Of a stretch of 64,000 nucleotides of DNA, positions 2,483-57,067 are shown piece after piece. Position 1 is the first letter of the stretch. The number at the start of each line of letters is the position of its first letter. This DNA is from Cliona cf. orientalis. Lineage: Eukaryota; Porifera; Demospongiae; Clionaida; Clionaidae. The DNA is taken from contig OZ005694.1 in the NCBI GenBank assembly GCA_963930775.1, positions 6,565,054 to 6,629,053 on the forward strand. The letters run 5' to 3'. The translations under genes and the position numbers were made by a program. Below the pieces are notes generated by a model, which did not search any database, was not told where the DNA came from, and saw only the letters and a list, made by a program, of their open reading frames with translations.

Positions 2483-5400
2483 CTACTTATCAAAATACCA
2501 TTTCAACTTGTCTTTGAGTCTTGTTGGAAGTGGTAGTCTATCAACTTCATCACCACTCTTTAGCCAACTTGATAGTCTTTCCAGGCACAGCTCTTCAAGG
2601 TTGATAGCACCATACTCTGTACATGTAATTGTGGGTGGGTGCATGGCGAGAAAATTAGCATCATGAATATCAAGCCTTGTAATACAGTACTTACAGTACA
2701 TATCCAACAAGTCTCAGCATATTATTATAATTACCCTGCGCACATGTGCAAGGGGTAAAGCAATCGGTTTGTCCATCTGTCATTGTCGTCGTTGTCATTA
2801 TCGTCCTCAGCACGAAACTTGCCAATCTCACCACCTAGGCATCTGTGCGTGCTATAAGCACAATCGGTCGATAGATATCGGTGAAAAACTGATTTATACG
2901 CACTTCAAATTGCTCAAAAAGGCTTACTAGTGCTACAAACGTGCATTTTCTGTTCAGCATGCCTATGGTTTATCAACCATACCCATTCTATTGGCATAAT
3001 TAAATAATAAGTACCGTATCCTCCTGAAAATAAGCCCCCCCCCCTTTTTCAGCAGTAGACATGACCTAGACTGGGGAGGGGGCTTATTTTCGAATATGTA
3101 CTTTCCCTCGAATATAAGCCCCCCCCTGTGAAAGTAACAACGATCACGATCCATTTGCAGTCGCCGTGTGGAAGGACGACACCATCGTTGGTCACGTACT
3201 GCGGGAAATATCCAGAGTTTTCTTCAAAAGAGTGGCAGCGAGATGACTTGCTAAGTAGACAGCAACAGACAACGATCGGCGGTGGGGAAAGGACTTGTTG
3301 TTCCGTGTGTGTACGTCTTCAGAGGAAAGCAAAAGCATATTGACCGGCTCGTAAGTGTCTTCGCCAAGCTAAAAGTGCCATCATAACAGAGTGACTTCAA
3401 AACCGGCTTTTCTAAAAGCCACCACCATACTGTACTCGTAGTCAATTGAAGGGCGGGGTTACGTATGTATACGCTTGCGCACGCGTATATACGTACGTGT
3501 GCAGTCTACTTGGTGGAAGGGGGGCTTATAATCGAGGCAAACATACCTGTACAAGAACTTGAGGGTCAAAGAGGGGAGGGGGCTTATTTTCGAAGGGGCC
3601 TTATTTTCGGGAGGATACGGTATTATGCTGATGCGATTGCTCATGCTCCAAATCAGTGTTGGAAAGGGTCGTCAAATCATAAAACAGTCTGCTGCAGAGT
3701 ATAGAGGGGGCAGAGTACTACACTCACGCTACAGTGGCTACAGAGCGCATGGGGTATGTGCTCTACAGAGCTCTAGTTATAGTATGTCCCTTCATTAGAC
3801 AATATTGATTGGGGAATTAGTGCTTGAGCATCATGAGCATGTGCAAAGCCTAACTGACACTATGCTTGGCTATGGATACAATTAATGTATAATTCATTTC
3901 AATTAATGAGTGAGCCACGAAACATAATTATCATAGAGCTATGCAGAGCTCGAGCGCATGTTTGATCGATCCTGAACTAGACTATGAGCGCTCAACGACA
4001 ACTGAATGGTAGCTACATGTACCAACACTAAACATCGCTTCCTAATCAGAAGGTATATACTCATCGCTACGTGGCCCAAAACAGCCTTCTTTCAATTTTG
4101 TCACTGAGTCAGCTATCTTCAGCATAGATCATATATAGCACATGTCCCAAAGTTAATTGGGGAATTAGTATATTATGATTGACTACATGTATGTGCAGAG
4201 CATAAACACAACAGGCTATGGATATGATCCCTAGTTAATCAAATACAACGCATGATCCAATTTAACGCAATAAATTAGCATTTTACGAAATCTCATAACG
4301 TTTATCTATGGAGCGATTGACGACCTTTACCAGAAAAATGCGCGTTTTTCAAAATTGAAATTATTATCTTTTTTTCTATGCGTAGTATTAGATTAAGTAT
4401 GGTAACGTACATGTACATGTACAATTTACAGTGAGCCACAGACACTACAGGGTCGCCTTCAACAATAGACAAACTAAAATTCTTTTGGCGCAAACTATTA
4501 GCAGTCATAGGTGTGTGTACATACACTAGATGTGACTACTGTAACACTCACCTGCTTTAGTGATAACTGTAGCAACACAGCGGCCATAATGGTCCACAAC
4601 GGCATAGACATCAGTGTCTCTGGTGTAGATGTTCTTCGCTGCTATGCCTTGACTTTCACCATTCACAGTGAACTCCAACACTCCACCTTGGGATAGACGT
4701 AATCCAACACAATCTCCCTCACGAAGATCATATAAATGAACATAGCCATAGTCGGAGTCCTCTCCAGGAGTGACAAGGTTATTGGATAGTGTCTGGCCAG
4801 ACCACACACAATGGTATTCAGCGCCATAGGAATCCTCAGGGATACCAGGACCAGATTTAATCGTTATCCCTCTCTTAGTCCTTCTTATACCCAATCGTAG
4901 TGATCCAGTCCATTTTGCTCCATAATATGTCACCATTTTCACCTCAAACTCTGCCAGTCCTTTAAGTGGTTGTGCTCCATATGCTACACCATCTTCGAAA
5001 TTATCTTCAGGGTTCATCCTCTCAGCTCCTAGTCCATTATTGGAGATTCGAATGTTTTCTCCCGCTGCACTGTGGTAGCCAAATTGAATGTCTTTGTTTG
5101 GTGTTGACTCATCTGTATCTGACTCTGACAGAGGATCTTGTAGTCTTCTGGTTTGGTCTTCCTCCACTAATATACACCCTGATAGTAAAAGAAAATTATG
5201 TACATGTACGAACTTGATGTATGTCCACCCATGACTCTTATCCAGGGGCGGAACAAGTATATTTAAAGTGGTCACAGGGGCTTAGGTATAATAAAAAGTT
5301 TGCGAGCGTAAGCGTGTCGCGAAAATTTTGGATTTGCCACGCCCACTTTTGGAGTTTGAAGGATACAAAATTAATAAGTTCAATATCATTTTAATACAGC

Positions 5401-11400: not shown

Positions 11401-13139
11401 AGGCGTTCATGAAGGCAGTCAAACTGATCCATCAATGCTTCGATCCACTTGGGCACATCCAGAGGGAACACTGCATAGAATAAGTTGATAGGCAAGATAC
11501 GTAACACAATAACAATGAGTAGGTATGTATATACCATCACAATGTCATATTAAAATTAATGTTACTACATGAAGGTCACTAAGAATTGTTTCTACTGTAC
11601 AGCGGGAAACTTTGGAGAGGTTTTAAATTTGGAAATTTGGAAAACTCGGTATAGATTACCCAAATTAGTTTGCGCAACTATGGCAATAATCATTTAGAAT
11701 GCCAAATTTAAAATTCACCAATAGCAATGAAGAGCCATTTTGCCAAATTTAATGCTTGCCACAGTAAACCTGGGTCCAGGGAGGAGCTTATAAGTATGTT
11801 CACCTTGTCTTGATCACGTTATACCATTATAGTGGGAAATTTTTTGAGGGGTCCACTTTTTATAGATAATATAGACTAACCACGAAATTGAATCCCTGTA
11901 CTCTATAATGGAATGTATCAGCAAAAAACTAAAATTTAATGGTAAAGATCACCTACATGTATCTATGAAAATCAAACTTCCCCCTGATTTTCCCGCTAGT
12001 ACGAAAATAGCTGTGGCGGTTGAGCAACAGTAGGCACTTTAATTCATGCATATATGTAGCTAATATAATTATGCTCAGACAATTTTGTAATTACATGTAT
12101 GCACATCAAATGTTTACTGTTGTCAGCTAGTGGTGACTTTCAAAAGGTTTTTTTGATCTCCAAAAAGTTTTAATATTATTACGCTCGGAAATTCATGTGA
12201 GATACGTTAATTAGGTTGTAAAGTCCTATAATGGACAGTTTTGCACTTACGCACCTACTGAGGAACAAACTTAATTGTGAAATGATCCCCCAGGAACTAC
12301 ATGAAATTAACTCATTTTTGCCCCCAAGAACAATTAATTTGTACAGTTCAATCCCCTATATAGGATCAATTAATTTATCGCTCTGGAAATTAACAAGTGA
12401 TTGCTTGACCCCTCCGGAACCTGTATAGGGAACCAGAAAGTACCCCCAAAGATTAATTAAAATCACCAAAAGAGGCCTGTCACGAAATAAATGGTCCCCC
12501 GCTACAAGTGGTCCCCCGGACCATCCGTTTCCACAAAAAATGGTCATCAGTGTCAAGGGTGGACTGCTTGTGGCAAGCACAGATGGTCCGGGGGGACAGA
12601 TTATTCTGGCACCAATGAATGATGGATCGTCATTCAGTGCATGATAGGCTCATAAGAACCAAATAGCCCAATAATTATTCCATACCTGTAGAACTTGATT
12701 CACCCTGGTGCTCTTGAGCCTGGTGATTCTGACCACTTCCAGAAGGTATTTCCCAGTTGGTGACACTTCCTGACAGTGGTACCAGGCTCAACGTCGACTT
12801 AACCTTTATACACAGAAACTCCACGAGATCACAGCGTTGTCGACGGTGCAAAACGCTAGCTAGCTTCAAATACGTGGCTTTCTTGCCCTCCCTCTTGCCC
12901 CAGGTATCCAACAGAGCTATTCTGCAGAGCTCTTGGCTGGAGTTCTCGCGATTTATATCTCTCAGTTTCTCCAAGGTGAACTCGAGGTAACGCCCAGCCA
13001 TCTCCCAGTCGTCAAGCTTGACAGCAACCTCATCTCGGACTCGCTCCGGACACTCCTTGTCCAGATCCGTAGGTTTTAAACCGTGTCGGGACAAAATTTC
13101 CTCCAATTGCAAACTAGGACCTACTTCGATTGACGCCAT
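2483..13139 (-). CDS. Death domain-NHR-SOCS box protein, complete copy (829 aa)
   Basis: Seven exons join in phase: 12686-13139, 10665-11470, 9081-9209, 8869-9033, 7740-7914, 4552-5178 and 2483-2616, totalling 2490 nt. The ATG at 13137-13139 has a good context and starts a Death domain (about residues 28-110, with the DTWGKREGKKAT helix). Residues 152-420 are a helical module of unknown function. Residues 421-577 are beta-rich and unassigned. Residues about 610-785 are a Neuralized homology repeat (FGYHSAAG start, LEFTVNG core, DVYAVVDHYG end). Residues 787-829 read as a SOCS box, with LEELCLERL as BC-box and LPLPTRLKDKL as Cul5-box. By family this implies Elongin B/C-Cullin recruitment, with the NHR choosing the target and the Death domain taking an upstream signal; that role is inferred. 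The intron between exons 3 and 4 is only 47 bp. Confidence 0.85.
2731..3776 (+). repeat. GCGC-ended ~400 bp repeat, interrupted by a MITE
   Basis: One end reads ACCCTGCGCACATGTGCAAG and the other GGGGTATGTGCTCTACAGAG then CTCTAGT. The same element without interruption is at 29111-29525 in unit 2. It lies in the intron between the NHR and SOCS exons. No poly(A) tail or coding sequence is visible, so it may be a MITE or a SINE-like repeat. Confidence 0.65.
3014..3620. mobile_element. CCGTA-ended MITE with TA target, family A
   Basis: Inverted tips CCGTATCCTCCTGAAAATAA and its complement are flanked by TA at 3012-3013 and 3621-3622. G-rich and C-rich segments follow each tip. Unit 2 has the empty site near 29360. 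The TA target fits the Tc1/mariner group. Confidence 0.8.
4232..4403. mobile_element. CCGTA-type MITE, family G, uninterrupted copy
   Basis: This ~172 bp copy lies inverted relative to the MITE at 13753-18432 and lacks the RAG1-like transposon that splits the other copy. Tips are slightly decayed (TTAATC/GATTAA next to the CCGTA-like ends). It serves as the empty-site reference: the join reads CCATAGATAAACG on the complementary strand. Confidence 0.7.
5243..5574. mobile_element. CAGGGGCG-ended MITE with 5-bp target duplication
   Basis: Tips CAGGGGCGGAAC and CAAGGGCGGCAC (complement) face each other. TTATC flanks both sides (5238-5242 and 5575-5579). Unit 2 shows the intact site near 30998. 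It sits in the intron before the NHR exon. No coding sequence. Confidence 0.7.
5769..6594. mobile_element. CAGTGGAACCCC-type (pogo-like) MITE, old copy
   Basis: The right tip GGGGTTCCACTG is intact, but the left tip has eroded to CCCCTCTAAAACGGAC. The same insertion is present in unit 2 (31200-31687), so it predates the duplication. A MULE-type MITE is nested at 6201-6559. Confidence 0.65.
6201..6559. mobile_element. MULE-type MITE with 9-bp target duplication
   Basis: Long inverted arms start TAGTCTCGCGCAGCCAGACT. The 9-bp CTGTTGAGG repeats at 6192-6200 and 6560-6568. A 9-bp duplication is typical of Mutator-like elements. Both arms continue inward almost to the centre, so the whole unit folds. 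Absent from unit 2. Confidence 0.8.
6870..7014 (-). repeat. GCGC-ended repeat, partial copy
   Basis: Only the end carrying CCCCTTGCGCATGGGGTAAT, preceded by the characteristic GACAGACAGACA stretch, is present here. It lies in the intron between the exon at 7740 and the NHR exon. Confidence 0.5.
7337..7669. mobile_element. CAGGGGCGTAGC-ended MITE with 5-bp target duplication
   Basis: Tips CAGGGGCGTAGC and CAAGGGCGTAGC (complement) are flanked by CTCCT at 7332-7336 and 7670-7674. Unit 2 has the empty site near 32467. It ends 70 bp from the exon at 7740-7914. Confidence 0.75.
9726..10536. mobile_element. CAGGGTTTCATC-type element, unit 1 copy with poly-C tract
   Basis: Tips CAGAGTTTCTTC and GGATGAAACCCTG are inverted, and the right end is preceded by a run of about 28 C. 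The same insertion is in unit 2 (34340-35095) and unit 3 (49708-50016), so it predates all three. It occupies the intron between the exons at 9081-9209 and 10665-11470. Confidence 0.6.
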
Positions 13140-13237
13140 GGTATTATGCTTCGTTCGCCACACCCCAAAATCCAAAATCTGATACATACAATCTTGATGA
13201 CCATTTCCTAAATGCACTACTGGGATCGAGTTGCATT

Positions 13238-13590: not shown

Positions 13591-13845
13591 ACCAGTCAGC
13601 CTCAGAGGCATACAATTAATCGGTGCTAACATCCCTTAGTTTATATCAATTAGGGATGTCAGGGCAAAAAATTCACTTCATCATTAGCATTATTACTCTG
13701 CACCAGTGTGTAGAGTAGGTATAGCTGATCACTCTGATATGTATATGACGTACCGTACTTAATCTAATACTACGCATGGAAATAAAATAATTTCAATTTT
13801 GAAAAACGCGCGTTTTTCGGGTAAAGGTCGTCAATCGCTCCATAT

Positions 13846-16800
13846 CACGGGTGTTTCATCCGCGTACGTTAATGGAAATTTAGTTTAGACCGGAAGTCCT
13901 GTGTAAACTTTTCCTTGCACATGGCAACACCCCCTAGCAACCAGAAGCCATGTCAAAAATGCACTGTCATGCTTCCTGGAGCAAAGCCACGTGATAGGCT
14001 ATGGGATAGCCAAAAAGCGCTTGCCTTGCACTTTCTTATAGTGCAAGTTCTGTGAAAAAAGAACGCACCAAACTTGAGTTATGAGTGTTCCTTCTAGAAA
14101 TCGAAGGGAAGGAGTGTGTTATGGTTTTTTCCTTAGAACTGGAGATCTAGAGTTTTTCTGGACTTTTGGATTTTACCATGACTATTGTTGACAGTAAGTC
14201 TAAGTGTAGCAGTTGTTGGAGTGCTGCTCCTCCTTTTTCTTGATGAGAGAGACAAGCGGTAAGTGTACACAATAAAATACGGGTAAATACGTAGTCAAGG
14301 GGAGATAGTAAGTATAAAAAGGGTCCTAAAGTTGTCTATTCTTCAGGTTCTGCTGTTGATAACTTTCTTCTCTTAATAGGAGGCCTAGCAGTGGTGTTTT
14401 GTGGTGCTATATGTAACAGGTGAGCGGACAGCATACACTTCAGCCTCTTCACTCTGTCAGGAATAGAATTGTATTTCACCCTCAGATTATTAAAAAAGCT
14501 GTGAATACTTTCAGCCCCCTGTTCACCCATTAGGCCAAAGCCTGCCTTCCACTTGTGGATCCACTCCACCATGTGCTCTTCTAGCATGTGAAGTTTTGGT
14601 GTTACACTTGCATGGGGGAATGTTGTGCGATAGTAGGCCATGAAATTCTTAATGTTGTCGGCTGTGAAACAAAATTATGATGGTGTATGTGTGTGGTTGA
14701 CAGTAAAAGACCTTACATAGTTGATCTCGTTCACTCTGAGTCACATGATTCTTTTGGTAGATGTTATGGCATTTGCTGAACAAAGTGAAGGCCTCCCTAA
14801 ATCTATCAGCTATTGCTTGTGCTTCTGGTATCAGAGAGGGACAGTGCTGGCTGGCAAGTGAAGATACAGAGTTGCAAACTGTGTCAATGTTCTTTAACTA
14901 AAATAAGGTGGTACACATGCATGTAAGACAGGAAACTTTTATGAATGAGCATGAACACCTTCAGGCATGAGTGTACGTGGTTCCCAACAAAAGTTCCACT
15001 ATAGTAGGCCTGACGCTGCACATTGAATGAGGCTAGGGCTTGATCTATAGCTCGAACAAACGGCCCATCACTACGCGTGAAAGTCTTCTTAATAGTTTTG
15101 TCAAGTCCTTGTACCTCCTTCTCCTGGATGCACATAGTACTCACCAGTACATCATTGCGCACATATAATATTATAATACCATCTCTTCTATTTTCTTCTT
15201 CCTTGTAGTTACCATCTCTGTGACCTGCTGTATATGGGATTCAGTGCCTGGACTGGAAGAGAGAGTTACAACTGCCAGTGTCAAGAGCTGCTCCAAGCCT
15301 TCCACTTGTGCTCGAGTCCTATCAATGTTATCACGTAAGACTGCTTGGCGCTGAAACTCTGCTGAAAACCGTGTGTATGTGTAACCAACATCACAACTTT
15401 GTAGCTGTAAAACATGCTTCACGTCCAGCTCATGACAGGCATCTTCGAGCAGAGTGAAAAGGCGAAAGAAGATGCCGAGACTGATATGCAGTCCTGGAGG
15501 ACAAACCTAACAGAAAAAGCAAGAAATGGTAGGTATTGATGGCTCTTTCTTTTATCTTACCTGGGTCAAAGGCACGGGAAAGAAGAGTTTCCTTATCACA
15601 TTGTTAAAATTTTTGGCATTCTTTATATTGTTGCCACCCTTTTGAAAACGCTCCAGGTCTGACTTGAGGGAGTTGTCAGTCCGTGGTACTACAGCTCCAC
15701 GGATACGTGGGGGAGACTGAAGAGCGCTAGACTCTATGTGGCACCACAAGCAACAGTGACGGCCTAGGTGTATTTCGATTATGTCGAGGTATGTAATAGG
15801 GAGCGTAATAGACTATTCTTACCACTAGCTCCTGACAATCCCATTGACTTCGTTTCAAATTCATAGTCTCCACTCATGAAAACTCTTATTTTCTTTCCTC
15901 TATATAATTTAACTAATTAAAGTTATGGTAATTTTACTTTTTTCCTTACTTCCAGGTGTGTTCCTCCAGCTTGCCTATTTCTTCGCCAAAGCGGTCGGCT
16001 ACAACCTTGAGGTTAGTCACACTATCTGAAGCTTCAAAGAGGCTAAAAACACAAGTGTTGCTAGGGGAGTTGGGATGGTGTGTATTCACGATCTGGAATG
16101 ACATTTTGAAAGACTTGCCACCCTTATCGCCCCCTAGCTTGAGCCAGATTTCATCTGGAGGGATAATGTCACCATGCCAGTGAAGACAATCATGCCTGGT
16201 GGGAATACCAATAGTTAAGCAGTATAATATGTAGTTAAATAGGTATTACTCGTCATTTTGGTCAAGCATTGACTCAATTTTGTCCCACAGTGATGTGACG
16301 TACGCATAGGGTGCTAAGCGCACTTCCTCACCGCCCTCCTTCAATGAGAAAGTGAAGGGGACATTCTCTGCCTCATATCCATCACCAACAATCTGTAATG
16401 CCTCTTTACGCATTTGCTGCTCGCTGGCGATGGATACTCCCCATGTTTTGAACCACCTATACATTATGCACATTGATGAATTGGCGTAGCATGGCTTATA
16501 TTCATTATTACCTCCTAATTACTCTTAGTTTTGCCCAAGGAATGTTGAGGTCCGCCTTCATTCCCAAGCTTTGCTTGGTACTCACTTCCACCTTGAATCC
16601 ACCCTTTTGAAGCTCCACCAAAAGTAGCTCACGTTCTTCTGTTGTTGTGACTTTTACTTCATCTTGTAGTTGGGTAGAAGTTGCACCTTTGCTGGCAAAG
16701 TTACGGTGTCCACTAAGCTCAGTTGTGCGTGCCCTAACTGTCTTATTAGTCGCCTTATTTGATGATAACCGTGGCTTTGTCACCTTCATGAATGTCAGTG

Positions 16801-18351
16801 GCTATCAATTTACACAATTTTCATTTTGTATCATAGGATTGTATTAATTTTTACCTGTCCTCCTGTCTTGACCGAAAGAATGCCGCTATGGGTGGGATCT
16901 GAAGCCAACTTACGGCGTACAAGACTGGTAGTCAGCTTCAACTCCTGCTCAGTCAAAGGTGAATCAGGAGACTTGGACAAGATGTCATCAACTAGTAGCT
17001 CTCTCTGTTGAAGGATAACTCCCTCCCTACATCCACTGCTAAGATGGTTCTGGTAGGTGGCTACATTAATTTTAATTTAGTACCACTATTATTTATTACT
17101 TTAGCATCACATTACTTATGTACCTAGTGCTATGATAGAATCACATGTTGTGCAGGTAACTTGACGAGCTCCCAGGACTTTCAATAGGGCTGTAGATGGC
17201 TGAACCATTGTGGCATAATCTTGGATGTGAAATCCCTTACAGCATGGACACTGACATTGCTTGGCATCTTCCAAAGCCCTACAAAGACAGCTCATGCACA
17301 CCAGTCTATTACATGTCGTGAGATGAATTGGCCGATCAACAACATGTGAACACAGATCACACTGGAATTCATCATCTTCAGCTGCTGGAGAGTGTGTGAT
17401 TTGTCTGGAGATGCTGTTGGAAAAGAAACTGGGTGGTGCCACGGAATGCAGGTATGTGATCGCAGATTTCACACTTATAGCTTGTGGACGTCCAACTTTG
17501 CACTTTGTAGGTCGTCCACCAGAAGCTATTGTCTGGAAGTGTTCACAAACTCCACAACCACCTTCACTCACATGGGAATGCCAGTTGAATGGACTAACAC
17601 TTGGTTTGTAGGACTTTCCTGTGTCCCTACCATTTCGTGCACGCATCAGGACATTGTAGCATCCATGGCAAAGTTGGTGTGGGTGAACCGCTGGCTCATC
17701 AGTAGCAGTTGTCAAATCAAAGGTATGAATCAGATCTTTACTGAATTTTGCACACTCATACTTCACACGAAACCTTGCTAATTTTCTTGCACAGACTCTA
17801 CAATGCTTTTCCAGCTCTTTCAAATGGAATTCATCCATTGCTAATGTATTCATGGATCATATCAATTTTTGTATTGTGTACAAGTGTATGTAAGGAAAAA
17901 AAATCAATATAAAAACAGGTCCAGGACAGCCAGCAGAAAAGGAGGAGCAGGATTCTAATGCTTTGGAATTGTTGTTCTATTGTAATGTGTGTACTTAACA
18001 GCTAACCTGGTTTCTGGAAAACTCCACAGCCTCTGGAATGTTGATTGCAACAGAGCGGTTTTTCAGCTGCGCGGCTTCGTCCCACAAGTACTATGATTAT
18101 TAGTGCATGTGCAGTGTAGTATAACCGCAGCAGCAGCTGCGCAGTGTGTTTCTATGGATACTTTCATGTGATAGGAGTGTGCTGGAAGCCACTTGATTAG
18201 TGAGTAGTGATTGGTTGGATCTCTGGACAAGGCGCTAAAATTCAAATGTAATGGCGTCTCTCTTGTGTGGTTGCCAACGCGGTTGCTATGTTAAACGCGT
18301 ATATACGGTACGATCTAATTATCGACTAAATTTCCATGAAAAACACCCGTG
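13846..18351 (-). mobile_element. RAG1-like DNA transposon, apparently complete
   Basis: The 4506 bp element begins CACGGGTGTTTCAT and ends with its inverse ACACCCGTG. A second matched block, ATGGAAATTTAGT, lies slightly inside each tip. ATAT flanks both sides (13842-13845 and 18352-18355). Against the empty site near 4310, the duplication is 4 bp. The CAC start recalls RAG signal heptamers and Transib ends, although those systems make 5-bp duplications. The single gene inside is intact, so the copy may be young. Confidence 0.85.
14336..17853 (-). CDS. RAG1-like transposase with RAG1 N-terminal zinc region (980 aa)
   Basis: Eleven exons close in phase (2943 nt): 17124-17853, 16855-17060, 16512-16801, 16250-16456, 15950-16195, 15823-15884, 15561-15763, 15180-15506, 14959-15123, 14717-14897 and 14336-14661. 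Residues 18-85 match the RAG1 N-terminal motif CRVC...HPHQLCHGCYNVL. A CxxC and RING-like cluster follows near residues 170-215, then a finger with YQNHLSSGC. The later part matches the RAG1 core in order: GGDKGG (D501), SGDYEF (D566), a CLWC zinc pair (585/588), KLHMLEEH (H897/H902) and GEQGAES (E919/E923). I infer D501, D566 and E923 as the DDE triad. Family: transposases described from molluscs as N-RAG-TP are the closest I know. Odd point: the RING C-x-H is C-N-R here. Expected activity is cutting and pasting its own element. Confidence 0.88.
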
Positions 18352-18432
18352 ATATATAAACGTTATGAGAATTTGTAAAATGCTAATTTATTGCGTTAAA
18401 TTGGATCATGCGTTGTATTCGATTAACTACGG

Positions 18433-19076
18433 TATATTAATTCCATATTTATGTCTCAATCCTGGGTTAATTCATGTCAACATTTTCCGGAGTAAGCAAT
18501 ACAAAAAATGGCATAATTGGTCTATTACAAGTAATGGTAGTTCTGAAAGTCCACATTGCACAAAGTCAGAAAAACTTGTCTTTGAAGAGAAAAACTATGT
18601 AAACCATCATGTTCAGCACCCAAACTTACCCTATAAGTGGTCTGGGTGCCTCACCCTTGGATCTACAGCATGCACAAACTTACACATCATTTGTGCCATG
18701 TCACTGATATAATATGAGGAGAAAAATTTTTGCGAATCCAGCCTGGCAATGTTTGACATCACTACATCAATAAATAATGTCACTAGCACTTTACTAGATA
18801 AAAACGCTATACTAAAGCTTCAAAAACGCTAGCTAGTTCATTAGTAGCTGCTCACCTGAACGTTTTCATCGCTTTTGAGTGGTGAAGAGAGGAGAGCATG
18901 GGCGATTCTTAATAATGCACACCCAATAACGGGCGAAATGGTGGGTGTGGTCAAGAAAAGTGGGCGTGGCTTCCAAATTTTCGCGCTCGCTTAGCGCGCA
19001 GATCATTAAGCACCCCCCTTTAGATACACCACTGTAGTATGTAAGATAGCTATACCATTATTACAACAGAATATTA
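18433..19076. other. Non-coding stretch
   Basis: I see no gene. Around 18950-19035 are GGGCGTGG motifs and the tail TAGATACACCACTG, which look like an eroded end of a hAT-type MITE. Confidence 0.4.
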
Positions 19077-29790: not shown

Positions 29791-31199
29791 GCATATATAC
29801 AAGCAATAGCAATAGTACTGAGTACATTACATGTAGAGCATTTGCTAGACAGTGCTAAGTGTGCAGTACAAGTACACAACCACAAATACCTAGCTGTACA
29901 AACCACGAGTAGTGGGCTTTTGTAAACTAGCTGCCCACTACACATGAGCTGCTTCCTACTGCTGTGTATATAGCTTAGCTGCAGACAGTATGATTTTAAC
30001 TACATCTATATACTTGATTTGTAATAATAGCTAAAGGTAAGAATCTTAGTATACCCTTCCCCCCGCTCTATAAAAAAAGTTCTGGCTAGAATACTGCTGT
30101 GTGCTAAACATTTTGAAACAGTTTTAACCGCATTTTCATCATAATTTTATCACATTTCATAATAATTACCTCTACCTCATCGGTCGGCCAAATTGTTTTT
30201 TGTTGATTGGGACTACAGGATGTAATATTGTGGCATAAATTACTGGCAACCAAAACATACATGAGTATGTGTACATACACTAGATGTGACTACTGTAACA
30301 CTCACCTGCTTTGGTGATAACTGTAGCAACACAGCAGCCATAATGGCCCACAACAGCATAGACATCAGTGTCTCTGGTGTAGATGTTCTTTGCTGCTATG
30401 CCTTGACTTTCACCATTCACAGTGAACTCCAACACTCCACCTTGGGATAGACTCAATCCAACACAATCTCCCTCACGAAGATCATATAAACAAACATAGC
30501 CATAGTCGGAGTCCTCTCCAGAGGGGACAAGGTTATTGGATACTGTCTGGCCAGACCACACACAATGGTATTTAGTGTCATAGGAATCCTCAGGGATACC
30601 AGGACCAGATTTAATCGTTATCCCTCTCTTAGTCCTCCTTATACCCAATCGTAGTGATCCAGTCCATTTTGCTCCATAATATGTCACTATTTTCACCTCA
30701 AACTCTGCCAGTCCTTTAAGAGGTTGTGCTCCATATGCTACACCATCTTCGAACTTATATTCAGGGTTCATCCTCTCAGCTCTTAGTCCATTGTTAGTGA
30801 TTCGAATGTTTTCTCCCGCTGCACTGTGGTAGCCAAATTGAATATCTTTGTTTTGTGTTGACTCATCTGTATCTGACTCTGACAGAGGATCTTGTAGTCT
30901 TCTAGTTTGGTCTTCCTCCACTAATATACACCCTGATAGTAAAAGAAAAGTATGTACATGTACGTAAGTTGATTTATGTCCACCCATGACTCTTATCATC
31001 AGTTGATTCTGTTAATAATTTTGGGAGGCTCACTCATTAAAAAGTTCATTATGCTCCCCATACAAGCCCCTCTCATTTTTGATTTGCATAATAATTATGT
31101 CCCTTCTTTATCAGATAGCCAAGCAAAAGCAATACTGCTATTCATTATATGAATGGCTTCCCTCATTTACTTTTGTGAATAATATTATTAATACTGTGA

Positions 31200-37218: not shown

Positions 37219-38230
37219 AACTATATGAAATTAACTCATTTTTGCCCCTAAGAATAAATAATTTGTACAGTTCAATCCCCTATATAGGATCAATTAATTT
37301 ATCGCTCTGGAAATTAATAAGTGATTGCTTGACCTCTCCGGAATCTGTATAGGGAACCAGAAAGTACCCCCCAAGATTAATTAAAATCACCAAAAGAGGC
37401 CTGTCACGAAATAAATGGTCCCCCGCTAGAAGTGGTCCCCCCCCCCCCCCCCACCCACCCACCCCCCGGAACCATCCATTTCCGCGAAACAATGGTCATC
37501 AGTGTTCAGGGTGGACTGCTTGTGGCAGGCACAGGTGGTCCGGGGGGGGGGGGGGGGACAGATTATTCTGGTACCAATGAATCATGATATGGATTGTCAG
37601 TTGCATGATAGGCTCATAAGAATCAAATAGCCCAATAATTATTCCATACCTGTAGAACTTAATTCATCCTGGTGCTCTTGAGCCTGGTGATTTTGATCAC
37701 TACCAGAGGGTATTTCCCAGTTGGTGACACTTCCTGACAGTTGTACCAGGCTCAACGTCGACTTAACCTTTGCACACATAAACTCCACGAGATCACCGTC
37801 GGGTGGCGTTGTCGACGATGCAAAACGCTAGCTAGCTTCAGATACGTGGCTTTCTTGCCCTCCCTCTTTCCCCAGGTATCCAATAGAGCTATTCTACAGA
37901 GCTCTTCGCTAGAGTTCTCGCGATTTATGTCCCTCAGTTTCTCCAAGGTGAACTCGAGGTAACGCCCAGCCATCTCCCAGTCATCAAGCTTCACGGCAAC
38001 CTCGTCTCGAACTCGCTCTGGACACTTCTTGTCCAGATCCGTAGGTTTTAAACCATGTCGGGACAAAATCTCCTCCAAACTAGGACCTGCTTTGCTCACA
38101 ATAGGACTGATTGACGACATGACATGCTTCGCTCGCCACACCACAAAATCTGAGTTTGGGGGTGTGGCCAGAAATCATCACATACACATACAAATTAATC
38201 TCGACGACCATTTCTTAATGGCACTGCTGG

Positions 38231-52199: not shown

Positions 52200-53400
52200 G
52201 CCCAAATGGCTCTATATACACAGTACACATGCTAAGAAATCAGTTCCATGTCCAAATGGCTCTTTGCGTAGCACACATACTAAGATATTAGCTCCATGCC
52301 CAGAATCTGATGGCTCTATATACACAGAACATATGCTAAGAGATCATCTCTTTGCCGCTTCGTAGAATATGCAAAACCAACATCTAACTATTTTGGTAGC
52401 AGTCACTACTGACCCGTTAACATGCATACTAATGACCCTTTATCACCTCTAACTATCCCAAAATTTGGGGTTGAAGATTATGTTGCTATGGTAGCTGCTA
52501 CTGAATGCTAAGAGATCAGCTCCATGCACAAATGGCCCAACTCACAGTACTCATACTAAGAGATCACCTCCATGTTTAAATTGCTCTATATACACAGTAC
52601 GCATACTAAGAGATCAGCTCCATGCCCAAATGGCTCAACACACAGTACACGTGCTAAGAAATCAGTTCCATGTCCAAATGGCTCAACACACAGTACACGT
52701 GCTAAGAAATGAGCTCCATGCCCAAATGGCTCAACACACAGTACACATGCTAAGAAATCAGCTCCATGCCCAAATGGCTCTTTATACACAGTACGCATAC
52801 TAAGAGATCAGCTCCATGCCCAAATGGCTCAACACACAGTACACATGCTAAGAAATCAGTTCCATGTTCAAATGGCTCAACACACAGTACACATGCATGC
52901 TAAGAAATCAAATGGCTCAACACACAGTACACGTGCTAAGAGATCACCTCCATGCCCAAATGGCTCAACACACAGTACACGTGCTAAGAAATCAGCTCCA
53001 TGCACAAATGGCTCAACACACAGTACACGTGCTAAGAAATCAGCTCCATGCCCAAATGGCACAACACACAGTACACATGCTAAGAAATCAGTTCCATGCT
53101 CAAATGGCTCAACACACAGTACACATGCTAAGAAATCAAATGGCTCAACACACAGTACACGTGCCAAGAGATCACCTCCATGCCCAAATGGCTCAACACA
53201 CAGTACACGTGCTAAGAGATCAGCTCCATGCCCAAATGGCTCAACACACAGTACACGTGCTAAGAAATCAGCTCCATGCACAAATGGCTCAACACACAGT
53301 ACACATGCTAAGAAACCACCTTCATGCCCAAATGGCTCTATATAGTTATACTACTAAAAGATCACCTCCATGTCACCAAATGGCTCCTTACACAGAACAC
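52200..53400 (+). repeat. 48-bp minisatellite, forward array
   Basis: About 20 units of a 48-bp repeat whose core is CTCCATGCCCAAATGGCTCA followed by ACACACAGTACACGTGCTAA. Spacing is exactly 48 bp over most of 52870-53329. Shorter units of about 40 and 36 bp at 52870-52910 and 53101-53137 mark two successive higher-order blocks of about 230 bp. Units include CACGTG or CACATG. Because 48 is a multiple of three, open frames of 134-198 residues appear on both strands; I regard them as artefacts. Units become diverged and spaced toward 52200. Confidence 0.8.
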
Positions 53401-53572
53401 ATTCGACAAATTATTTGCACTCTATTATACACACAAACACACAATGTCATAACTATGTAAATATACATTCAAATAAAGGTTTGATCATCTGTTCTGATTA
53501 GAGTATGTCTGCCATTGTATAGCAATATATACCCGGTATAGCAGGAATTGTTTTGGTCCAAATTTTTTATTA

Positions 53573-55349: not shown

Positions 55350-56640
55350 TGATTGTATACTGTGTGTTGAGCCATTTGGGCATGGAGCTGAGCTCTTAGT
55401 ATACTTGCAAGTACTTTGTATAGAGCCATTTGGCCATGGAGGTGAATCAGATCTCTTAGTATGTAGTATTATACACTGAGTGTATGGAGCCATTTGGGCA
55501 TGCATGGAGGTATATATAGTCTCTTAGTATTATATGATCGCATAATATTATGTGCATGTATAGAGCCATTTTGGCATGGAGGTGATCTTTTGGTATTACA
55601 TGTATTATTATGATTGTATAATATTATTATTGTGTGTTGCTCGAGCCATTCGGGCATGGAGCTGATCTCTTGGTATTATGATTGTATAGCTACAGTAACT
55701 GTGCATGTGTTAAGCCATTTGGGCATGGAGGTGGTCTCTTGGTATTATATAATTTATTATGATCAGTGGTTTCGCCAGGGGGGTGCATGTGGGTTCATTT
55801 GCACCCAATCCATGCACCTGTGCACCCCATCCTATTCATGACATTGTGTAGTTTTGTTGAGCCTGTCACAGTATGCAAATTTTACTACAGCCAGTGATAC
55901 ATGTAATATGTCATCACTACATATAATAATTTTTTTCTATATAATATAGTACTAGCTGTAACATAGCTATAGGTACTTGTAGTACACTCTTCTGCTAGCT
56001 TTAATTTATGCATCCACCTGTGCGGTTACTTTCGATAACTTGCACCCAGTTAAATAATTGCCTAGAGACGCCACAAATTATGATCGTATAGCTACTGTGT
56101 GTTGAGCCATTTGCGATGGGTATGGAGCTGATCTCTTAGTATAATATTCATTGAGTACTTTGTATAAAGCCATTTGGGCATGGAGGTAATCTCTTAATTA
56201 GTATAAATTAAATATTAATGAGTACTTTATAAGGAGCCATTTGGCCATAGAGGTGATCTCTTATTAATTAGTATGATTGTATTATATAGCTACAGTGTAT
56301 GGAGCCATTAGTATCATTGCATACTGTGCATAGAGCCATTTGGGCATGAATGTGATCTCTTGGTAAACTATGCGTACTGCATATTGAGCCATTTGGGCAT
56401 GGAGGTATAATCTCTTGGTATTATAAATCCTGTGTGTTGAGCCATTTGGGCATGGAGCTGATCTCTTAGCATATTCATGCATGTGTACTTTATATAGAGC
56501 CATTTGGGCATGGAGGTGATATCTTAGCATGTGTACTTTGTATAGAGCCATTTGGGCATGGAGCTGATTTCTTAGCACGTGTACTGTGTATTGAGCCATT
56601 TGGGCATGGAGGTGATCTCTTAGCACGTGTACTGTGTATA
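55350..56640 (-). repeat. 48-bp minisatellite, inverted and loosened array
   Basis: About 15 units with core GAGCCATTTGGGCATGGAGC and GATCTCTTAG, which is the complement of the 52.2-53.4 kb repeat. Here units are separated by variable AT-rich spacers, and a 300-bp interruption spans about 55760-56090. The most regular part is 56380-56640. With the forward array it makes a large inverted structure around 53.4-55.35 kb. Confidence 0.75.
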
Positions 56641-57067
56641 GATATCTCATCTAATGTCTATAATATGCATGCAGACCAACCATGTATAACGAAGATGTAT
56701 ACTGTATAGGCCTAGCTAGTATATAATTAATAGCTATATCTGCTTTGATTGGTATAATTACCGGGTAATCACACACTTCTGAGTACAATTAAGGCAGTAA
56801 TCAGTACTGAGCTCTTATACTTGTACGAGTATGGCCAGTATAAAAGCACGAGTGACAGCGAGTGCTATTTAATTTGGCTATACAAGTACAAGGCTTAGCA
56901 TACGATTATACTGTTGCTGCCCTACTGATTGTACAAGGATTAAAACATGTGATTAATTAGCTGTGACAAATACAGCAATTAATTTTGATTGACTACTGAC
57001 AGGCATCTATATCTCATAGTCACCTAATATACAACCTTTGCCCTCCGGCTCTTAGCAATACAAAGCC
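56641..57067. other. Non-coding stretch
   Basis: No gene or defined repeat seen. Confidence 0.35.

Follow-up and report, generated by a model that had tools for sequence, protein, structure and literature searches.

A gene on contig OZ005694.1 of the sponge Cliona cf. orientalis (GCA_963930775.1) raises the question of whether the N-terminal half of RAG1 was already joined to a DDE transposase core before the vertebrates, as the initial annotation of the locus had proposed. The locus was analysed within a 64,000-nt stretch of this contig (the window), and coordinates refer to positions in it. The gene was found to be carried by a transposon that belongs to the Chapa+RING type of Chapaev elements and is not, strictly speaking, a RAG1-like transposon. 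The two parts are indeed joined in one protein here, but the question had already been addressed in 2015, when Chapa and RING were described as joined to the catalytic core in Chapaev transposons and this architecture was put forward as the likely source of the N-terminal half of RAG1 (Kapitonov and Koonin 2015, PMC4411706, section 6). The element is a new family, in this genome, of an already published kind. Its outline, taken from flank comparison, the empty site, the inverted ends and a sister copy, is as follows.

13846..18351, minus strand: complete Chapaev-type DNA transposon, 4,506 bp
13842..13845: target site duplication ATAT, left
18352..18355: target site duplication ATAT, right

The inverted ends begin with CACGGGTGTTT and give the termini CAC/GTG. 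A second genomic copy, 98% identical, was found on the contig designated C1 and has its own target duplication, ACCC. When the flanks of the window copy were joined with a single ATAT, they matched a repeat of ~175 bp with many genomic copies. The repeat junction was spanned at at least 37 further places (40 of 2,419 candidates scored), one locus (L085) carried the uninterrupted insertion site as a base-level match with no gap, and the site was single in all seven empty repeats examined (six ATAT, one ATGT). Exact 4-bp duplications were present in 11/13 two-ended elements and 5-bp duplications in 0/13; additional to this count, C1_34047306 has ACAT on both sides and the duplication of the C12 element agrees in 3 of 4 bases. 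The unit is shown to be mobile, with CAC/GTG ends and a 4-bp target duplication, and it is inserted into the ~175-bp repeat. The repeat in which it is nested (13751-13845 and 18356-18434) was also seen in dozens of copies, including one more in the window (4222-4418), and the locus C6:6752422-6752744 matches the outer flanks without this repeat.

The coding sequence runs on the minus strand from 17853 to 14336. Its 11 exons join in phase to give 985 residues from the first ATG, and the 980 residues reported initially correspond to a start at the second ATG, where two relatives also begin (MDD, MDE). Each of the ten introns has GT-AG borders and a length of 50-63 bp. The donor of exon 8 is ambiguous, with an in-phase alternative 33 bases (11 residues) off. 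The exons and the motifs that they encode are given below.

17124..17853, minus strand: exon 1, Chapa zinc domain (about residues 17-103), RING (about residues 165-209) and start of a CCHC finger, from Pfam RAG1_imp_bd and the PDB profile search
16855..17060, minus strand: exon 2, end of the CCHC finger (C234, C237, H249, C254) and YQNHLSSGC
16512..16801, minus strand: exon 3, from the gene model
16250..16456, minus strand: exon 4, from the gene model
15950..16195, minus strand: exon 5, first catalytic Asp D501 (16126-16128, codon position derived from the gene model) and DUF1280 match
15823..15899, minus strand: exon 6, second catalytic Asp D571 (15866-15868)
15561..15763, minus strand: exon 7, CxxC zinc pair C590/C593 (15741-15752)
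15180..15506, minus strand: exon 8, LH motif (H660); its end is 15213 with the alternative donor
14959..15123, minus strand: exon 9, from the gene model
14717..14897, minus strand: exon 10, from the gene model
14336..14661, minus strand: exon 11, HxxxxH pair H902/H907 (14573-14590), catalytic Glu E928 (14510-14512) and stop

Exon matches in the relatives were separated by gaps of ~50-80 bases, mostly at the same places as the window introns; exon-by-exon queries partly fix the ends of such matches, and a search with the whole protein broke at the same residues in most loci. Between the window and its 98%-identical sister copy every insertion or deletion fell outside the exons, and 33 synonymous and 23 non-synonymous changes were counted (dN/dS ~0.19 by simple counting). 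The window copy has no premature stop, and the coding sequence was under purifying selection. On sequence comparison the exon frame is confirmed as real, its support from the relatives and the sister copy going beyond chance.

The likeness of the first exon to the N-terminal region of RAG1, through the YQNHLSSGC finger, was borne out by profile searches. Exon 1 alone scored 26.1 bits against Pfam RAG1_imp_bd, where the cut-off is 23.3, and the best PDB chain for an exon 1 profile built from eight loci was full-length RAG1 (1,040 residues) at 7.3e-16. The match covers RAG1 residues 102-356, taking in the Chapa zinc domain and RING together, and stands ahead of every other RING protein. A local profile of residues 1-312 gave RAG1 76.2 bits, the best of 2000 shuffles reaching 8.8, and it extended to the finger, where the YQNHLSSGC region was paired with YNHHISSH of RAG1. 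These findings support the homology of the N-terminal third to the non-core region of RAG1 over the Chapa zinc domain and RING.

In the catalytic part, the motifs D501, D571, C590/C593, H902/H907 and E928 were located where they had been claimed, and their order is the same as in RAG1 (D, D, CxxC, LH, HxxxxH, E). The spacings in the element and in RAG1 are equal for D2-C (19/19), C-C (3/3) and H-H (5/5), nearly equal for C-LH (67/65) and H-E (21/20), and unequal for D1-D2 (70 vs 108) and LH-H (242 vs 142). The zinc residues are kept in the relatives, and some decayed relatives have lost catalytic residues, as in the C10 copy with GGNKGE. DUF1280 (PF06918) was matched by all seven cores scanned, which were taken from the core alignment. 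PMC3985635 equates this Pfam family with the Chapaev transposases, and its published tree of RNase-H-like enzymes has DUF1280 and RAG1 in one clade, which speaks against an unrelated superfamily that has no zinc-binding insertion.

By sequence search the core itself did not reach RAG1. No RAG1 core match was obtained by Pfam in the seven cores, and among the PDB chains retrieved with a seven-member core profile, up to E = 1, there was none of RAG1, RAG1L or Transib. Profile alignment of the core to RAG1 did no better than chance: hhalign scored 17.1, as compared with 17.8 for reversed RAG1 and 28.0 for the best of 200 shuffles. Single-sequence matches to ProtoRAG RAG1L had E values of 0.11, 0.024 and 0.099, which are below significance, and in the searches giving 0.024 and 0.099 carboxypeptidase matches, surely due to chance, were equal or better. 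When local HMMs were run against RAG1, one ProtoRAG RAG1L piece and 2000 shuffles, RAG1 did no better than the shuffles with the HMMs of six pieces other than the N-terminal one. The RAG1L piece came first with the whole core (6.1 bits; shuffle best 5.3), the C-terminal part (10.9; 10.2) and exons 10-11 (11.5; 7.7), in a ranking biased its way because this piece had been chosen for its match. Pfam PF12940 (RAG1 core) had no match in this genome, but the controls were also unmatched, and this absence therefore carries no weight. Thus, of the claim of a RAG1-core-like DDE part, the motif order and some of the spacings stood, but the profile, hhalign and Pfam searches found no RAG1 core. The common descent of the Chapaev and RAG1 cores is likely on published grounds, the sequence comparison made here being below significance. 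In the predicted protein, a RAG1-like Chapa zinc domain and RING are followed by a Chapaev core (DUF1280) that has the DDE residues. The core motifs were also considered as proof of RAG1 kinship and dropped, since the wider group shares them (PMC12730594).

The search for sibling copies in the same genome was productive beyond the 98% sister. RAG1_imp_bd matched at least 22 stretches at E up to 0.1 and DUF1280 at least 20 at E up to 0.01, and 50 merged stretches of the genome yielded 28 loci with a chain of exon matches, the window included. An exon 1 match together with at least one of exons 5-7 was present in 22 of these 28; four of the other six stop by exon 4 or are without exons 5-7, one is without an exon 1 match, and the sixth, having only a 6-residue exon 1 match, was left uncounted. 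The relatives show 31-54% identity, and the first intron is absent from the C5-type copies. Relatives were also sought in viral contigs and genome contigs, where 25 and 46 pattern stretches were obtained and none was a relative. Contig C1, which makes up 17% of the genome, appeared crowded, with 14 of the 22 RAG1_imp_bd and 13 of the 20 DUF1280 stretches among the matches listed. In L047 and L054, exon 1 is seemingly split by an extra intron between the Chapa and RING parts. Four elements of ~1.4 kb (L004, L010, L013 and L018) share this type of end, are flanked by 4-bp duplications and have the appearance of non-autonomous partners of Chapaev.

Chapaev transposons with Chapa and RING are reported by Kapitonov and Jurka (2007) and by Kapitonov and Koonin (2015). 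The published hallmarks of Chapaev are CAC/GTG ends, a target duplication of 3-4 bp and a DDE motif together with LH and H(4)H (PMC4079192), whereas C(2)C is described as a feature of the wider group (PMC12730594). The element has a duplication of this length, CAC...GTG termini, a DDE core in which C(2)C, LH and H(4)H are all present and are conserved in the relatives, and the DUF1280 match, and the Chapa domain, which is accompanied by RING in two Chapaev subgroups, is seen through the RAG1 match over both domains. By these hallmarks and descriptions, rather than by Repbase sequences, it is very probably an apparently intact autonomous cut-and-paste Chapaev transposon that encodes one transposase. 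Some observations weigh against this. No exact 4-bp repeat flanks two of the 13 two-ended elements, C1_20155566 (3 of 4 bases) and C1_27009368, and one of the 11 exact duplications sits within an ACGT run. Furthermore, a single premature stop, at residue 294, interrupts the full-length sister copy, and recent activity is therefore not proven.

The strong N-terminal match, the shared order of core motifs with several equal or nearly equal spacings, and the weak alignment to ProtoRAG RAG1L (E 0.099), in which LHMLEEH is paired with LHKVIEH at HxxxxH and GAES with GNEA in the Glu region, would all be expected of a RAG1-like transposon (RAGL, TransibSU or ProtoRAG) directly related to vertebrate RAG1 over its whole length. 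The features shared with RAG1/RAGL are the N-terminal zinc region, RING and the asymmetric two-block ends described below, the last not being diagnostic. Such membership in the strict sense fails because of the 4-bp duplication, where 5 bp is expected, and the absence of a RAG1/Transib core by sequence profile. The D1-D2 and LH-H spacings also differ from those of RAG1, and less than 500 bp lies on either side of the gene, which by coordinates leaves no room for a RAG2-like gene, although no RAG2 search was made. This explanation was thus considered very improbable. The similarity to RAG1 is very unequal between the N-terminal part and the core, as it would be if an unrelated transposase had recently captured a RAG1-type N-terminus. 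However, exon 1 accompanies exons of the core in the 22 of 28 chained loci, at 31-54% identity, which indicates that the joint is old, and published Chapaevs have the same joint (PMC4411706, section 6), leaving a recent chimera with hardly any probability. An open frame with many exons under purifying selection could also belong to a domesticated host gene that merely retains transposon ends, but the ends that match each other, the exact duplication of the target, the empty sites, the sister copy elsewhere with its duplication ACCC, and the many further copies, both intact-looking and decayed, make that extremely unlikely.

Of the known systems closest to the element, Chapaevs with Chapa and RING have the Chapa zinc domain, RING, core, CAC/GTG ends and 3-4-bp duplication in common with it (PMC4411706). 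The distant subgroup Chapaev3 has a Chapa domain (PMC4411706) but a 3-bp TWA duplication (PMC4079192), whereas the duplication here is of 4 bp without such a consensus. Vertebrate RAG1 and the RAGL transposons (ProtoRAG, TransibSU) share the N-terminal Chapa, the RING (in RAG1) and the core motif order, and ProtoRAG has CAC ends, two conserved blocks and unequal spacers as here; they differ in duplication length, the RAG2-like gene and a core unmatched by sequence. N-RAG-TP of Aplysia, compared by its description, has a RAG1-like N-terminal region within a transposon, as does the element, but is described as wholly N-terminal-like sequence, whereas here a DDE core follows (PMC8355894).

The two ends of the element were found to be unequal, each consisting of a terminal and an internal block.

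13846..13884, plus strand: long end (3' side of the gene), 39 bp; CACGGGTGTTT and GGAAATTTAGT, separated by a spacer of 17 bp
18325..18351, minus strand: short end (5' side of the gene), 27 bp; CACGGGTGTTT and GGAAATTTAGT, separated by a spacer of 5 bp

A genome search for CACGGGYGTTT, 2-26 free bases and GGAMAYTTAGT gave 54 ends, and the reversed form of this pattern had no match in the genome. The ends were 27-28 bp (n=19) or 39-40 bp (n=32) long, with one each of 42, 45 and 47 bp and none of 29-38 bp. All 11 pairs formed from this list combined a short with a long end, and so did seven more two-ended elements (C5, C1_26920131, C1_26779024, C13, C1_34047306, C12 and C6_19540; the ends of C13 were paired by position and C6_19540 was found by its duplication), giving 18/18. 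The long end exceeded the short one by 12 bp in 12 elements, 11 bp in two, 13 bp in two, and 19 and 20 bp once each, and in all 16 coding copies with a placeable end the short end lay on the 5' side of the gene. When the two ends of ten elements were compared, 9-11 of 11 bases agreed in the terminal block and 7-10 of 10 in the internal block, and in two families a block is changed alike at both ends, with GGCCC in the internal block of C5 and CACTGCT in the terminal block of C1_34047306. The 17-base long spacers of the window, C5, C1_34047306 and C12 families share only 5-8 of 17 bases at the same length, and the short and long ends differ by 11-12 bp in five coding families whose transposases are only ~44-54% alike. 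An AGCAAC/GGCAAC pair, its members 12-13 bp apart, was also observed in the subterminal region of both ends (13923-13941 and 18270-18287), its position differing by 13-14 bp from one end to the other in a similar way to that of the internal block.

The rule that a short end is paired with a long one has points against it. A looser pattern allowing two mismatches, applied to the loci examined, gave in-between lengths of 30 bp (C16_3899560) and 34 bp (C12, with a G run), and no ends were located for the C1_17770042 family. The internal block of C13 agrees in only 7/10 bases between its ends, and the long spacers of C5 and C13 have 12/17 bases in common. In addition, the families share an ancestor, and the 18/18 therefore do not represent 18 independent events. 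The asymmetry of the ends has been inherited and maintained, and it may matter for function.

The recombination signals of RAG, 12/23, differ by 11 bp, and by analogy the short and long ends resemble them. ProtoRAG ends of 27/31 differ by 4, and unequal ends have been proposed as common to RAG transposons (PMC8289069). For Chapaev, no report of paired short and long ends was found in the literature searched, including the available text of PMC4411706 and the account of ends in PMC4079192; Repbase Reports, which describe Chapaev, may have it. It is conceivable, though doubtful, that Chapaev carries 12/23-type signals, composed of a CAC terminal block and an internal block, with the 3' spacer about one helical turn longer than the 5' spacer and spacer length conserved above spacer sequence.

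In the mechanism that these features suggest, transposase molecules would bind the conserved blocks of the short and long ends and bring the two ends together. Cleavage would then take place beside CAC through D501, D571 and E928 with metal ions, and the freed ends would be joined to the target at positions 4 bp from each other. The RING of RAG1 has ubiquitin ligase activity, and hence the RING here is probably also a ubiquitin ligase, which may tune the level of the transposase or the host response.

Elsewhere in the window, repeated gene units were seen with a Neuralized domain (4526-5281) and Death domains (12675-13235 and 37752-38174), and the open reading frames at 30283, 42246 and 62897 resemble, by eye only, the first member of these units (4526-5281). 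The Death and Neuralized domains fit an animal genome, and the short introns and gene content would suit a sponge. Long open frames of a short repeated peptide occur at 52495-53457, where both strands are open, and at 56285-56650; both are probably tandem DNA repeats.

The intact copy and its proven insertion confirm the architecture published in 2015, and the ends may matter more than the protein architecture. If the transposase needs one end of each kind, the rule in V(D)J recombination that pairs short with long would predate the RAG transposon and, like the Chapa and RING domains, go back to the common ancestor of Chapaev, Transib and RAG1. It would become possible to test outside RAG how the 12/23 rule arose, provided that other Chapaevs share the asymmetry and the enzyme depends on it.

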